Shown here piece after piece: positions 21,797 to 26,530 of a DNA stretch of 29,809 bases. Origin of the DNA: a virus; IMG/VR virus record IMGVR_UViG_3300020171_000100, positions 1 through 29,809 of that record. One strand, written 5' to 3'. Position 1 is the stretch's first letter; each line of letters begins with the position of its first letter. The notes under the pieces were generated by a model that was not told where the DNA came from, did not search any database, and saw only the letters and a list, made by a program, of their open reading frames with translations. Position numbers and translations under genes: made by a program.

Positions 21797-22174
21797 ATGA
21801 CCACGGCCACCCTGTCCCATCCCGACCCCTGCGACACCTGCAACCTGCCGTTTGATCTGGCGGACTGCGAGATGGGCCCCGGGTTTGTGTGCCCGGCAAG
21901 GCGGGCCTGGGAGTCTGGGCGGCCAGTGGGCGGATGGGTGGAGGAGGAGATCATGGGGAAAAACGCGGAAATCCGTAAAACGTGCGTCCATGTCGAGTTG
22001 GGGGAGGATTTCCCCGCGCCCGTGGACCTGCAAACGGAAATGGACGCGGCCTCCGATGCCTGGGACGCCGCATGGGCGGCCGCGGACCTGGAGGCCCTGG
22101 CGGAAAACCTCCGGCTCTGCGTGATCCGCCTGTCCCGGGCGCGTTTCGTCTTGGCGAAAGGGGCGGCGGCATGA
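21797..22174 (+). CDS. Cys-rich N-terminal hypothetical protein
   Basis: A 125-aa protein. The N-terminus has DPCDTCNLPFDLADCEMGPG followed by FVC, four Cys that could bind a zinc ion. The rest is helical and acidic (QTEMDAASDAWDAAWAAADL, EALAENLRLCVIRL). ATG 21797 is 2 bp after the previous stop, after a G-run. Its stop overlaps the start of the DUF5131 gene. No family is recognised. Confidence 0.6.
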   Translation: MTTATLSHPDPCDTCNLPFDLADCEMGPGFVCPARRAWESGRPVGGWVEEEIMGKNAEIRKTCVHVELGEDFPAPVDLQTEMDAASDAWDAAWAAADLEALAENLRLCVIRLSRARFVLAKGAAA

Positions 22175-22989
22175 GCGGGAAATGGTGGGACTGGGCGTGG
22201 AATCCGGTCACGGGGTGTTCTCCGGCGTCTGTGGGCTGCGCGAACTGTTACGCCAAGCGGGCGGCGGAGCATCCGCGGTTGCGCGGAAAATTCGGCTACC
22301 CGGAGGATGAGCCGTTCCGGGTGACCCTCCGGCCTGACCGGTTTAGCCTGCCCCTGGACAGGAAAAAACCCCTGCGGATTTTCGTCAATTCCATGGGCGA
22401 CCTGTTCCACCCGGACGTGCCCCAGGAGTTCATCAACCATGTGTTCTGGTCCATGGCCATGGCACCCCAACACCTCTTTTTTGTGTGCACCAAACGCCAC
22501 GAGCGGCTGGTGGAGTCCATGGAGCAGGTCCACCGCCACATGGCGGACGTGAATTTTCCCGCTCCCCTGCCCAACGTCATGGGCATGGTGACGGCGGAAA
22601 ATCAGGAGATGGCGGACGCCAGGATCCCCGAGCTGTTGCGCGCCGGATTCGCCCTGCGCGGGGTTTCCGTGGAGCCCATGCTGGGGCCGGTGGACATGGT
22701 TCCCGGCCCCCTTGGTGGGTATTTTCAGGGGGAAATGCTCTCCAGTTCCCTCATAGACTGGGTGATCTGCGGCGCGGAAACCGGTCCCGGCAAGCGGGCG
22801 TTTGATCCTGCGTGGGCCCAGGTCCTGGCCGAGGATTGCGCCACCAAAGGGGTGCCGTTCTGGTTCAAGCAGGGCGAACGGGGCCGCCATGAGTTGAGCG
22901 GCAAGGTTTTCGGGGCGATGCCCAAGGTTTGGGATTCGGAGCGTGGGTGTCTCCGACCGGACGGGAAAGGGGCGGCAGAAAATGGCTAA
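22171..22989 (+). CDS. DUF5131 (phage Gp37/Gp68) family protein
   Basis: A 272-aa protein with the family start WAWNPVTGCSPASVGCANCY. The three Cys (residues 16, 23, 26; CX6CX2C) and downstream blocks (LRIFVNSMGDLFHPDVPQEF, FFVCTKRHERL, GVSVEPMLGPVDM, WVICGAETGPGKR) all match. The family is widespread in phages and plasmids. Its fold resembles radical-SAM or other Fe-S-binding enzymes, but the reaction is not established. It lies in the early operon next to a DnaA-like gene and the clamp. ATG 22171 overlaps the previous TGA. Confidence 0.88.
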   Translation: MSGKWWDWAWNPVTGCSPASVGCANCYAKRAAEHPRLRGKFGYPEDEPFRVTLRPDRFSLPLDRKKPLRIFVNSMGDLFHPDVPQEFINHVFWSMAMAPQHLFFVCTKRHERLVESMEQVHRHMADVNFPAPLPNVMGMVTAENQEMADARIPELLRAGFALRGVSVEPMLGPVDMVPGPLGGYFQGEMLSSSLIDWVICGAETGPGKRAFDPAWAQVLAEDCATKGVPFWFKQGERGRHELSGKVFGAMPKVWDSERGCLRPDGKGAAENG

Positions 22990-23182
22990 CGTCTGGCGGA
23001 GCCATCCCGATGAATGCGATCTGTGCGGCGGCAATACCGAAATTTTTGCCGAGGAGTCGTTGCCCGATGGATGGGGCGGCGATGGGGACAGAATGCGCTG
23101 TCTGAATTGCGGGGCTTCTGGGCAGTGGATCGTCCACGATGAGGCCGCCGCTTGGTCCGTTTGGTCGGAGGTGACAGCATGA
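22982..23182 (+). CDS. Zinc-ribbon protein
   Basis: A 66-aa protein with CDLCGG near residue 12 and CLNCGASG near residue 40, the two CxxC halves of a zinc ribbon. The C-terminal EAAAWSVWSEV is helical. It overlaps the end of the DUF5131 gene and the start of the DnaA-like gene, so all three are translated together. Small restriction-alleviation-like Lar proteins of phages have a similar zinc ribbon plus helix, so that family is a candidate. The call is tentative. Confidence 0.6.
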   Translation: MANVWRSHPDECDLCGGNTEIFAEESLPDGWGGDGDRMRCLNCGASGQWIVHDEAAAWSVWSEVTA

Positions 23183-23598
23183 GCACGATCTGGACCAAAA
23201 CGCGGCGGGAGTTGCGGGCCCGGTTGCCCTGGGGCGGGTGGGAGATGTTCGTCCGGCCTCTGCGGGTGCTCCAGGAGGATGAGGGCCGGGTGGTGCTGGG
23301 CGCGGACACGGAGCTGGGCGCGCGCATGGCCATGGACCAGTTCGGCGCCGAGATCCGCGCGGCCCTCTGCCGGGCCGCCGGGCGGGAGGTGGCCGTGGAG
23401 ATCGTCCACGCCGGCCACCCCGGCCACGTGCTCCACTACGCCGCCGACAAAACCCCGTTCCTCTCCCCCGGCCTCCAGGACCGCCCCTGCAAGGTGCTGG
23501 CCATGGCCACCGGCCCCGGACCCCGAAACGCCCTGGTGGAGCTGGACAACGGCACCCGCGTGGTGGTGCCCCGGCGGAACGCGCGGAGGGCCGCGTAA
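23179..23598 (+). CDS. Free-standing DnaA N-terminal domain (domain I) protein
   Basis: A 139-aa protein. Residues about 3-75 match DnaA domain I: IWTKTRRELRARLPWGGWEM, then FVRPLRVLQEDEGRVVLGAD, then MDQFGAEIRAALC. In host DnaA this domain self-associates and recruits helicase and DiaA-like partners. No AAA+ or DNA-binding domain follows. The C-terminal 60 residues (CKVLAMATGPGPRNALVELD) are different and beta-like. ATG 23179 overlaps the previous stop. In this early operon it may capture the host helicase or interfere with host DnaA; both are inference. Confidence 0.75.
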   Translation: MSTIWTKTRRELRARLPWGGWEMFVRPLRVLQEDEGRVVLGADTELGARMAMDQFGAEIRAALCRAAGREVAVEIVHAGHPGHVLHYAADKTPFLSPGLQDRPCKVLAMATGPGPRNALVELDNGTRVVVPRRNARRAA

Positions 23599-24024
23599 AT
23601 GGCCATGCGCGCGCCAAACAAACACGGCGTTTTTGAGGAGCCCGAGGTGGCCCTGATGGTGGGCGAACAGGTCCGCGATTTTTGCACCGTGCTGGTGGCC
23701 GAGTGGAAAGACGGGTGGAGGTGGTCCTACTCGATGGCGTGCGGGTTCCCAAACACGGGTGCCTGCGCTCCATCCTGGCTCCCGATGATGAGTCAAAAGC
23801 CGTTCTCCTCCAGGCGTCTGGCTGTGGCGGTTGCCATCGAGGAATTGGCGGCCCGGTTGGCCGAGATGGAGCGGTGTCAAGTCCGGTGGTCTCATGGCTC
23901 CTGGCGCCGGGATGAGCACCTTGCCGTTGCCCGCCGGGCACGGGCCCTGCTCAAACGGTTTTCGTCCGTGGCCGATCAGGTCACGGGGCCACGGCAGCTC
24001 TCACTTTTTGGGGAGGTGGCATGA
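23599..24024 (+). CDS. Hypothetical protein with C-terminal clamp-binding motif
   Basis: A 141-aa protein directly after the DnaA-like gene. Residues about 1-70 contain EWKDGWRWSYSMACGFPNTG, residues about 70-125 are helical (RRLAVAVAIEELAARLAEME, LAVARRARALLKRF), and residues 133-137 are QLSLF near the very end (23995-24009). QLSLF fits the consensus pentapeptide QL(S/D)LF by which partners dock on the bacterial beta sliding clamp. The next gene, overlapping by 4 bases, encodes a clamp. The rest resembles no family I recognise. It is likely a clamp-dependent factor of the phage replisome. Confidence 0.7.
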   Translation: MAMRAPNKHGVFEEPEVALMVGEQVRDFCTVLVAEWKDGWRWSYSMACGFPNTGACAPSWLPMMSQKPFSSRRLAVAVAIEELAARLAEMERCQVRWSHGSWRRDEHLAVARRARALLKRFSSVADQVTGPRQLSLFGEVA

Positions 24025-25142
24025 GGGTTTCGGTTTCGGCAAAGCGGCTGCATGAGGCGCTGGAGCGGTGTTTGCCGGTGTGCAAGGCGTCCGGGGGCAT
24101 CGAGTGGACTTCCCACGTGCTCCTGGACGCCCGGGACGGGGAGTTCTGGGTCCACGCGGACAACCTGACCCTGGCGGTTTCCGTTTTCGTCCAGGCGGAC
24201 GTGGAGCAGGACGGGCGGGCCCTCGTGCCCGGCCGCATCCTGGGCCAGGTGGCCGCGGCGGCCAACGGCGCGGTGGGGCTGGAGAGCTCCGGGAGCCGGC
24301 TGGCCGTCACGGGTTGCGGCACCTGGGACCTGGCCGGCCTGTTCGCGGACGATTTCGCCGGGAGCCTGACCTCCCCGGTGGTGGCCGCCGGCGCGGTTTC
24401 CGTGGACGGCGCGGCCCTGGCCCGGGCGGTTTCGTCCGTGTCCCGCGCATTTGGCCGGCCGGGCCAGGGGGAGACCCGGGCGCACATCGCCGGGTTCCTC
24501 CTCCAGGCTGTGGACGGGGACGCGGGCCGGAGGCTGTGGGCAACGGCAACGGACGGGCACCGGATCTGCATCGCGGACGGCGGCCCCTGGGCCGGCGGGG
24601 ATCTGTGCGTGGTGCCGCCCAAGGCGGCCGCCCAGGCCCTCCACGATCTCCTGGAGTCCGGCCCCGTGTCCCTGGCGGTGGAGGGCTCGTTCCTCCGGGC
24701 CGTGGGCCACGAGGCCGCCCTGGGCATCCGCCTGGTGGCCGGCCAGTTTCCGGATTGCTCCTCGTTCCTCCCGGGGGTGGCCCTTGGGCGCGGAACGACG
24801 GCGCCCGGGGAGCTGGCGGCCGCCATGCGCCGTGCCGGCCTGGTGCTCTCGGACAAGCACCCCGGAGCGGTCCTGGCCGCCGGGGACGGACAGGCCGTGA
24901 TCACGGCCGTAAACCCCGACCTGGGCGAGTGCGTGTCCCGGTGCCCGGTGGAGTGGACCGGAGAGCCCATCCCCGGCCTGGTGTACAACCTCAAATTTTT
25001 GGCGGACGGCGTGGCCGCGGCCGACTCGGACCCCGTGGCCATTCAGTACGAAGGCCCGGACCGCCCCCTGTTCCTCCTGCCGGCGGGCGACCGGGAGTGG
25101 TTCTGCGTGTTCGGGGTGATGCCCATGGCGATGGAGAGATGA
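24021..25142 (+). CDS. dnaN: Beta sliding clamp, DnaN family
   Basis: A 373-aa ring subunit that tethers DNA polymerase III to DNA. Features match bacterial DnaN (366 aa in E. coli). They are ATDGHR at residues 176-181, the FPDCSSFLP block at 243-251, YNLKFLADGV at 322-331, and the C-terminus VMPMAMER at 366-373. In E. coli the TDGHR and MPM residues line the pocket that binds QLxLF motifs, and here both are kept, so the pocket should work. ATG 24021 overlaps the previous TGA. Phage clamps of DnaN type are uncommon. Sequence divergence from the host is suggested but not tested. Confidence 0.9.
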   Translation: MRVSVSAKRLHEALERCLPVCKASGGIEWTSHVLLDARDGEFWVHADNLTLAVSVFVQADVEQDGRALVPGRILGQVAAAANGAVGLESSGSRLAVTGCGTWDLAGLFADDFAGSLTSPVVAAGAVSVDGAALARAVSSVSRAFGRPGQGETRAHIAGFLLQAVDGDAGRRLWATATDGHRICIADGGPWAGGDLCVVPPKAAAQALHDLLESGPVSLAVEGSFLRAVGHEAALGIRLVAGQFPDCSSFLPGVALGRGTTAPGELAAAMRRAGLVLSDKHPGAVLAAGDGQAVITAVNPDLGECVSRCPVEWTGEPIPGLVYNLKFLADGVAAADSDPVAIQYEGPDRPLFLLPAGDREWFCVFGVMPMAMER

Positions 25143-25537
25143 CCTTGCCCCTTTCCCCTGATCGGAATACGATGGACCGGATTTCCCCCTTGAAAATTTC
25201 TGACGTGGCCCGGATCATGGGCATGAGCGCGCGGTGGGTGTACGACCACGCCGCGGAGCTGAACGGCGTCAAGATTGGGCGGAACTGGTTTTTCACCGAG
25301 CTGGGGTTGGCGGATGCCTTACAAGGAAAAAACGGGCGGCTGGCGGGGCGTGGTGAAATCGGGCGGGGAGAGGATCACCCGGCGGTTTGCCACCAAACGG
25401 GATGCGGGCGAGTGGGAGCGCGCCGAGCGAAAACGGCGGGACGCCGGCGCTCCGCTGATCCGTTTGGGATTTTTGGACCTGTCCACGAAGTACCTGGAGT
25501 TCACGGCTGCGCGGTTCGTGGGGAAAACCCACAATGA
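25139..25537 (+). CDS. Helix-turn-helix protein, excisionase candidate, overlapping the integrase
   Basis: The N-terminal 60 residues contain a MerR/excisionase-type HTH: LKISDVARIMGMSARWVYDH, then GVKIGRNWFFTELGLADALQ. ATG 25139 overlaps the clamp stop (ATGA); ATG 25172 is an alternative. The zero frame stays open to 25537, giving 132 aa, but the last 67 or so codons overlap the integrase gene and look like antisense-grade shadow. At 25327-25333 lies A-AAA-AAC, a -1 slippery heptamer in this frame; slipping would give a 72-aa protein ending at 25356. Neighbour logic supports excisionase. The true C-terminus is unclear. Confidence 0.6.
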   Translation: MTLPLSPDRNTMDRISPLKISDVARIMGMSARWVYDHAAELNGVKIGRNWFFTELGLADALQGKNGRLAGRGEIGRGEDHPAVCHQTGCGRVGARRAKTAGRRRSADPFGIFGPVHEVPGVHGCAVRGENPQ

Positions 25538-26366
25538 AAAACTCCATATCATCCGCGAGTTTGGGTCTTTCCTTGGCGGGGACATGGACGCCGAGGCCGT
25601 CACCCCGGCCCAGGTCAACGACTACATGCTTGAAATCAGCCGGTCCCGGAGCCCCAACGCGGCCAACAAGCACCGGAAGAACCTTTCCGCCATGTGGACA
25701 TGGGGCATCAAGATCCTTGGCCTGGAATCCAACCCTTGGCAAAAGACCGAAAAGTTCACGCATGAACGATCCAAAAAATATATCCCGCCAAGGGAAGACA
25801 TTCTACGTGTCCTTGCCGTGTCCTCTGGCGAAGATCGGGTCATGCTTTTGTGCTACCTCAACACGGGGGCCAGGAGGACGGAAGTCTTTCGCCTCCGGTG
25901 GGATGACGTGGACTTCGCCCATCGGCGCATCCGCCTTTGGACCAGGAAGACCCGGGGCGGTGCATGGCGCGAAGACTGGCTCCCCCTTTCGGCCCAACTC
26001 CATGATTCTCTGGAGTGGTGGCGGGCCAACACCCCTTTCCCGGAAAGCGAGTTCGTCTTTGTGGCCCGTCACCGGAGATACAAGGGGGAGCCTTTCCGGG
26101 ATTATCGGATGTGGATTCAACGGCTTTGCGAACGTGCCGGGGTGGAGCGGTTCGGTTATCATGCCCTTCGGCACCATGTCGCCTCTTTCCTGGCTGACGA
26201 AGGTGTCCCCATGCGGCGAATCCAGGAAGTCCTCCGGCACCAACGACTCAGCACCACAGAAGGATATTTGCACGGCCTCGGGCGCGACCTCTCGGACACC
26301 ATGGAAATTCTCGGGACACATAGCGGGACACACGACAAAAAAAAGGGGCCAGCCGAAAACGGCTAA
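25314..26366 (+). CDS. int: Tyrosine recombinase (phage integrase)
   Basis: A 350-aa integrase. ATG 25314 begins MPYKEKTGGWRGVVKSGG, a typical N-terminal DNA-arm domain. The core-binding region follows at about 55-150. Catalytic residues fit the family: Arg in TGARRTEV (187 or 188), Lys 212, His283-x-x-Arg286 in YHALRHH, His309, and nucleophile Tyr318 in EGYLHG. The C-terminal tail ILGTHSGTHDKKKGPAENG is unusual: its codons carry two GGGACACA direct repeats and a terminator on the opposite strand. The attachment core begins 15 bp after the stop. The gene overlaps the HTH gene. Confidence 0.92.
   Translation: MPYKEKTGGWRGVVKSGGERITRRFATKRDAGEWERAERKRRDAGAPLIRLGFLDLSTKYLEFTAARFVGKTHNEKLHIIREFGSFLGGDMDAEAVTPAQVNDYMLEISRSRSPNAANKHRKNLSAMWTWGIKILGLESNPWQKTEKFTHERSKKYIPPREDILRVLAVSSGEDRVMLLCYLNTGARRTEVFRLRWDDVDFAHRRIRLWTRKTRGGAWREDWLPLSAQLHDSLEWWRANTPFPESEFVFVARHRRYKGEPFRDYRMWIQRLCERAGVERFGYHALRHHVASFLADEGVPMRRIQEVLRHQRLSTTEGYLHGLGRDLSDTMEILGTHSGTHDKKKGPAENG
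26313..26332 (+). repeat. Putative left arm-type integrase sites
   Basis: GGGACACA occurs at 26313-26320 and 26325-26332, exactly 12 bp apart, inside the end of the integrase gene. A weaker CGGACACC is at 26293-26300. The same GGGACAC pair with the same 12-bp spacing lies on the other side of the tRNA core. Confidence 0.6.
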
Positions 26367-26380: not shown

Positions 26381-26428
26381 TGGCGGGGACGACGAGACTT
26401 GAACTCGCGACCTCCGGCTTGACAGGCC
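26381..26428 (-). other. Attachment core: 3' end of a tRNA-Asp (GTC) gene, probable attP
   Basis: On the minus strand this reads from the anticodon loop CTGTCAA (anticodon GTC) through variable loop, T-arm GCGAG-TTCAAGT-CTCGT, acceptor CGTCCCC, discriminator G and CCA. That is the 3' half of tRNA-Asp; no 5' half follows, so it is not a full tRNA gene. Phages often carry such a segment as core so the tRNA is rebuilt on integration. Phage-type genes on both sides point to attP, not attL or attR. Confidence 0.75.
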
Positions 26429-26530
26429 TGTGCGCAACTTTTCGTAAACACGTAAATACATTGATTTCAAAGGGATACGTTGCGGTGCGGAGTTGGCTTT
26501 CGCGCCGTTATGTGTCCTTTTTTTGTTCTG

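Follow-up and report, generated by a model that had tools for sequence, protein, structure and literature searches.

A small orphan protein with a consensus clamp-binding motif in its tail is encoded next to a divergent beta sliding clamp in a tailed phage

In the early replication and integration operon of a tailed phage, a gene for a full-length, divergent beta sliding clamp (DnaN) is directly preceded by, and overlaps with, a gene for a 141-aa orphan protein whose C-terminal tail carries the sequence QLSLF, a consensus clamp-binding motif (CBM). The pairing of the clamp gene with a CBM-tailed gene is real and goes beyond chance. We infer that the 141-aa protein binds a clamp and consider it fairly probable that it is a clamp-tethered accessory factor or regulator of phage DNA replication that docks by its tail on the host clamp, the phage clamp or both. 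In the mechanism that we propose, the early operon would yield the phage's own version of the beta clamp and, from the translationally coupled upstream gene, the small protein with the CBM; the most likely role of the tail is to enter the partner pocket of a beta clamp, so that the N-terminal body would be held at the clamp on DNA and could act in, or on, phage replication.

The window, that is, the entire stretch of DNA analyzed here, is the 29.8 kb (29,809 nt) IMG/VR virus record IMGVR_UViG_3300020171_000100. The first part of the window contains genes for head decoration, the major head protein, which is approximately 46% identical to its counterpart in Wolbachia phage WO, and the tail tape-measure protein; 3' of these structural genes lies the early region, followed by genes for an excisionase, a tyrosine integrase and a D5-type primase/helicase (855 aa). 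Between the integrase and primase genes, there is a sequence that resembles the 3' half of a tRNA, which is what attachment sites typically show, and in which ARAGORN detected no full tRNA. The combination of structural genes, excisionase and integrase genes, and the tRNA-like attachment sequence identifies the virus as a temperate tailed phage. A search for relatives via the integrase found none, and the search with the primase retrieved a single distant relative (record L003, 42%), a record that contains no clamp gene. The genes from 22171 to 25537 are tightly coupled, forming an uninterrupted chain in which each gene overlaps or abuts the next one, in the order DUF5131 protein, Lar-like zinc ribbon, DnaA domain-I-like protein, 141-aa protein, clamp, excisionase. 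The features of this region are as follows.

22171..22989, plus strand: first operon gene, encoding a DUF5131 (phage Gp37/Gp68) protein (PF07505, 7e-61; phrog_2045, 1.5e-68; start picked by eye)
22982..23182, plus strand: Lar (restriction alleviation)-like small protein with a zinc ribbon (phrog_599, 8.8e-5; PF14354, 4.6e-4, below the cut-off)
23179..23598, plus strand: 139-aa protein, DnaA domain-I-like at its N terminus (PF11638 DnaA_N, 5e-4)
23599..24024, plus strand: 141-aa orphan protein with a C-terminal CBM (ORF, motif statistics, coding score)
23995..24009, plus strand: QLSLF codons, residues 133-137 (sequence)
24010..24024, plus strand: GEVA codons and stop; GGGGAGG doubles as the dnaN ribosome-binding site, and ATGA is the stop/start overlap (sequence)
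24021..25142, plus strand: phage beta sliding clamp with a divergent pocket, 373 aa (phrog_947, 9.7e-34; PDB matches; pocket alignment)
25139..25537, plus strand: excisionase-like HTH protein, with an ATGA overlap with the clamp gene (phrog_1840, 2.2e-7; PF12728, 8.6e-4)
25314..26366, plus strand: tyrosine integrase, ORF 25275-26366 (PF00589, 5e-25; phrog_1, 1.4e-47)
26382-26430: likely attachment site between integrase and primase, resembling a tRNA 3' half on the minus strand

The excisionase ORF (25139-25537) and the integrase ORF overlap by about 220 bases, which is either a long overlap or an assembly frameshift. The 139-aa protein can be described only as DnaA domain-I-like, given that its match to PF11638 scores 20.2 bits and so does not reach the gathering cut-off of 24.6; compared with E. 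coli DnaA, W6 and RPL are conserved and E21 is not, and no AAA+ or DNA-binding domain was found in this protein. The domain was not detected in the other records searched, and a search for relatives via this gene found none. The presence of a DnaA domain-I-like gene upstream would fit with a theme of targeting host replication proteins. The arrangement, with dnaN two genes further on, recalls the chromosomal dnaA-dnaN order.

The two genes described in an earlier note on this DNA are both present, with their 4-base overlap: ORF 23599-24024 codes for 141 aa and ORF 24021-25142 for 373 aa, and the bases that they share are ATGA. The 141-aa ORF is likely to be coding because it has the top coding log-odds among the six frames (0.16 per codon, with all remaining frames negative), carries a GGAGGG ribosome-binding site and starts immediately after the stop of the preceding gene; the coding score of its central stretch (~23690-23780) is weak. 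The note also had the protein ending in QLSLF: the motif is present but is not the terminus, being followed by GEVA, so that the protein ends in PRQLSLFGEVA. The codons of these last four residues (GGG GAG GTG GCA, then TGA) are the dnaN ribosome-binding site read in frame. Thus, the residues after QLSLF are fixed by the gene overlap, and the recurrence of GEVAA/GEVTA in other phages need not bear on clamp binding.

The proposed fit of QLSLF to the clamp-docking consensus holds up well. The sequence meets the CBM pattern Q-aliphatic-x-[LM]-[FL] and agrees with the consensus of the best-binding peptides (PMC11139829, PMC4549789); QLxLF motifs show the highest clamp affinities (PMC11139829), and QLSLF built into a transposase bound the clamps of three species, the C-terminal position being typical among mobile-element ligands (PMC4549789). 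In a structural model of the 141-aa protein that is of low confidence throughout (pLDDT 55), the body is mostly helical (it is also rich in tryptophan) and residues 131-141 are unstructured (pLDDT < 50), suggesting that the tail is probably disordered. CBMs are normally located in such unstructured tails. QLSLF is the sole match to strict QLxLF in the six-frame ORFs of the window; QLxLF appeared in 0.11% of the shuffles of the 141-aa sequence, and the expected frequency of such a match within the last 15 residues is about 7e-5 for a single specified gene, rising to about 0.2% when the tails of all 32 genes are considered.

No recognizable domain was detected in the 141-aa protein by comparison with Pfam, PHROG, NCBIfam and PDB, a replication-initiator (winged-helix) domain included, and no homologs were found in viral contigs, genome contigs, phages (to an E-value of 10), plasmids or 38 viral records, where the scans of the collections rely on exact matches of short peptides and so miss distant relatives. 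Two candidate homologs were rejected, namely, a match in record L002 (36% over 67 residues), which lies inside an unrelated 643-aa protein, and a 43-aa match in the 38 viral records, which carries two stops. A -1 frameshift fusing the 141-aa protein with the clamp was rejected as well: the clamp frame is open for about 35 codons upstream of the ATG, but there is no convincing slippery site.

The identification of the downstream gene as a full-length DnaN is borne out by a match to phrog_947 ('DNA polymerase processivity factor') over residues 1-371, by matches to the three Pfam beta domains, with the C-terminal domain alone scoring above its cut-off, by sequence matches to PDB clamps, and by the similarity of the AF2 model (pLDDT 84) to PDB clamps in Foldseek (E 4e-29, TM about 0.7). 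The match to TIGR00663 dnan (8e-23) reaches 80.9 bits versus the curated cut-off of 137.65, and the overall identity to the E. coli clamp is 22%; judging by these comparisons, the protein is a divergent homolog, not the housekeeping DnaN equivalog. It resembles the bacterial-type clamps of other phages (phrog_947; Rhizobium phage RHph_X2_25, Microcystis phage Mae-JY04, Paracoccus phage Pthi1) in being a full three-domain DnaN encoded among the early or replication genes of a tailed phage. However, it is only 18-31% identical to the aligned phage clamps of this type and differs from them in its altered partner pocket and in having a CBM-tailed neighbor, which the others lack except for the methyltransferase in Mae-JY04.

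The pocket was defined as the 18 residues listed in PMC11139829 and mapped on an alignment with the clamps of E. coli and 52 phages, a set that is dominated by one phage group. The TDGHR (residues 177-181) and MPM residues that the earlier note had singled out are indeed retained, but the note omitted that the surrounding pocket is among the three most altered ones in this set. The window clamp keeps 11 of the 18 E. coli pocket residues (T172, G174, H175, R176, P242, N320 and M362-P363-M364 among them) versus about 19% identity outside the pocket, which indicates that the pocket is still under constraint. The substitutions, in E. coli numbering, are L155I, L177I, R246S, V247F, Y323F, V344D and R365A, those at R246, V247, V344 and R365 being non-conservative; R24 and Q149 are changed as well. 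By contrast, in the other phage clamps, R246 is present in 50/52, V247 in 49/52, and Y323 and R365 in all 52, and 50 of these clamps keep at least 16 of the 18 residues. The clamps of FSAT01 and MT837889 match even fewer pocket residues than the window clamp, and neither has a CBM-tailed neighbor.

Bacterial-type clamps are common in phages, being present in at least 535 stretches in one scan. Among 80 viral clamp loci, mostly related to Rhizobium phages, none had a QLxLF-type tail on a gene near dnaN, and among 16 further phage and plasmid clamp loci, there was one CBM-tailed gene, in Microcystis phage Mae-JY04 (L008:5524-8253), where a 52-aa gene separates dnaN from a downstream DNA methyltransferase gene whose product ends in RQIDLFGAVA. 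Thus, a clamp gene with a CBM-tailed neighbor is rare albeit not unique. Mae-JY04 is a cultured phage that, like the window, also has a Gp37/Gp68 (DUF5131) gene. A putative second case of a clamp with QLSLF, in record L096, was rejected given that the clamp is truncated or frameshifted and the motif lies outside any good ORF.

Such tails are not confined to clamp-carrying phages. A DNA pattern encoding QLxLFG and followed by ATGA within 30 bases was found in 67 viral stretches, versus 45 for a control pattern in which the peptide was reversed; when only distinct ORFs of 55 aa or more that end no more than 12 residues past the motif are counted, there were 16 with QLxLFG versus 2 in the control, some of the 16 being short or doubtful and a few closely related to one another. 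The recognizable owners (assigned by eye; records L093-L159) are mostly unrelated proteins, among them one HNH-type protein and no fewer than five DNA methyltransferases, so that the C-terminal QLxLFG tail is a real, convergent feature of phages. No clamp gene was found in 13 of the 14 tail-bearing records checked, many of which are fragments, and the tag, therefore, most likely usually addresses the host clamp. In record L108 (L108:938-1720, minus strand), a phage DNA methyltransferase ends in QRQLTLFGAAA, and the next gene, judged by eye, seems to encode only the DNA-binding domain IV of DnaA.

Docking of the 141-aa protein on a clamp is, then, supported by the full-consensus, high-affinity motif and the apparently unstructured tail, by the excess of QLxLFG tails in phages and the parallel in Mae-JY04, by the constraint on the pocket of the phage clamp and the coupling of genes 22171-25537, and by precedents from other mobile elements; what speaks against it is that the protein has no detected homolog, no recognizable domain in its body, a poor model and a weak central coding signal. 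One such precedent is TrfA of plasmid RK2, a mobile-element replication protein that recruits the beta clamp of the host to the plasmid through its CBM (PMC4980987); TrfA, however, is an iteron-binding initiator with an internal motif that targets the host clamp, whereas the searches of the 141-aa protein revealed no initiator domain. The clamp-bound transposases (IS1634 and others) of mobile elements have C-terminal QLxLF tails of many origins (PMC4549789), similar to the tail described here, but the 141-aa protein has no transposase domain and adjoins an element-encoded clamp. By analogy, the protein might also be likened to the Caulobacter toxin SocB, which is likewise small and uses the common motif to occupy the clamp pocket (PMC9690074), although no antitoxin-like neighbor was recognized beside the 141-aa gene, and to Twort gp168, a small phage protein aimed at the beta clamp, which, however, fills the DNA channel without using the partner pocket (PMC11139829).

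The earlier note suggested a dedicated clamp-partner system, and here the docking motif is well supported but the exclusive link with the neighboring clamp is not. A cognate pair, in which the 141-aa protein would serve the phage clamp and bring the host polymerase or some other replisome component to phage DNA, is suggested by the adjacency and coupling of the two genes, by the low probability (about 1e-4) of such a tail in one given neighbor and by the retained core of the clamp pocket. Nevertheless, we regard this scenario as unlikely, and as less likely than the note had it, because a motif that matches the universal consensus should be able to bind any beta, hence the host clamp as well, and the pocket of the phage clamp is the diverged side; moreover, the same tails occur in phage records without clamps, and the surveyed clamp loci almost never have a CBM-tailed gene near dnaN (0/80 and 1/16).

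Alternatively, the 141-aa protein could cap the pocket of the host clamp, in a SocB-like replication stop, with the altered-pocket phage clamp taking over on phage DNA. Few pocket ligands are stronger than QLSLF (PMC11139829), four residues that are near-invariant in the other 52 clamps (R246, V247, Y323 and R365) are missing from the phage clamp, and the blocking of a clamp by SocB via its motif (PMC9690074) and phage inhibition of a clamp by gp168, albeit via the DNA channel (PMC11139829), provide precedents. However, the change in the pocket might be mere divergence, considering the low overall identity to the E. coli clamp, the same altered pocket would have to serve the polymerase and the clamp loader of the host, and the FSAT01 and MT837889 clamps have diverged further in the pocket with no CBM-tailed gene nearby, so we consider this option improbable. 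Just as improbable, if not more so, is an operon for clamp exchange, in which the ideal pocket ligand would disable the host beta for all its partners and the immune phage clamp would steer replication proteins to phage DNA. Besides the capping of the host clamp, another alternative to a dedicated pair that is worth testing is a tag directed at the host clamp, of the kind seen in other phages. Finally, an accidental QLSLF in a protein unrelated to clamps is very unlikely: the expectation of about 0.056 (~5.6%) QLxLF matches in the ~8800 aa encoded by the window genes, the choice of the motif after reading the sequence and the lack of detected homologs in which conservation could be checked make room for it, but the motif sits in a tail, where its probability is far lower (about 7e-5 for one gene), in a replication operon beside dnaN, and such tails are enriched in phages.

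In a limited literature search, we found no experimental account of why a phage that probably depends on the polymerase of its host would have a clamp of its own. The present pair, an altered-pocket phage clamp and a neighboring protein bearing an ideal pocket ligand, involves just two genes and is open to direct testing. Beyond this pair, the convergent QLxLFG tails on phage methyltransferases and an HNH protein suggest that clamp docking is a widespread, little-noticed route by which phage enzymes reach new DNA.
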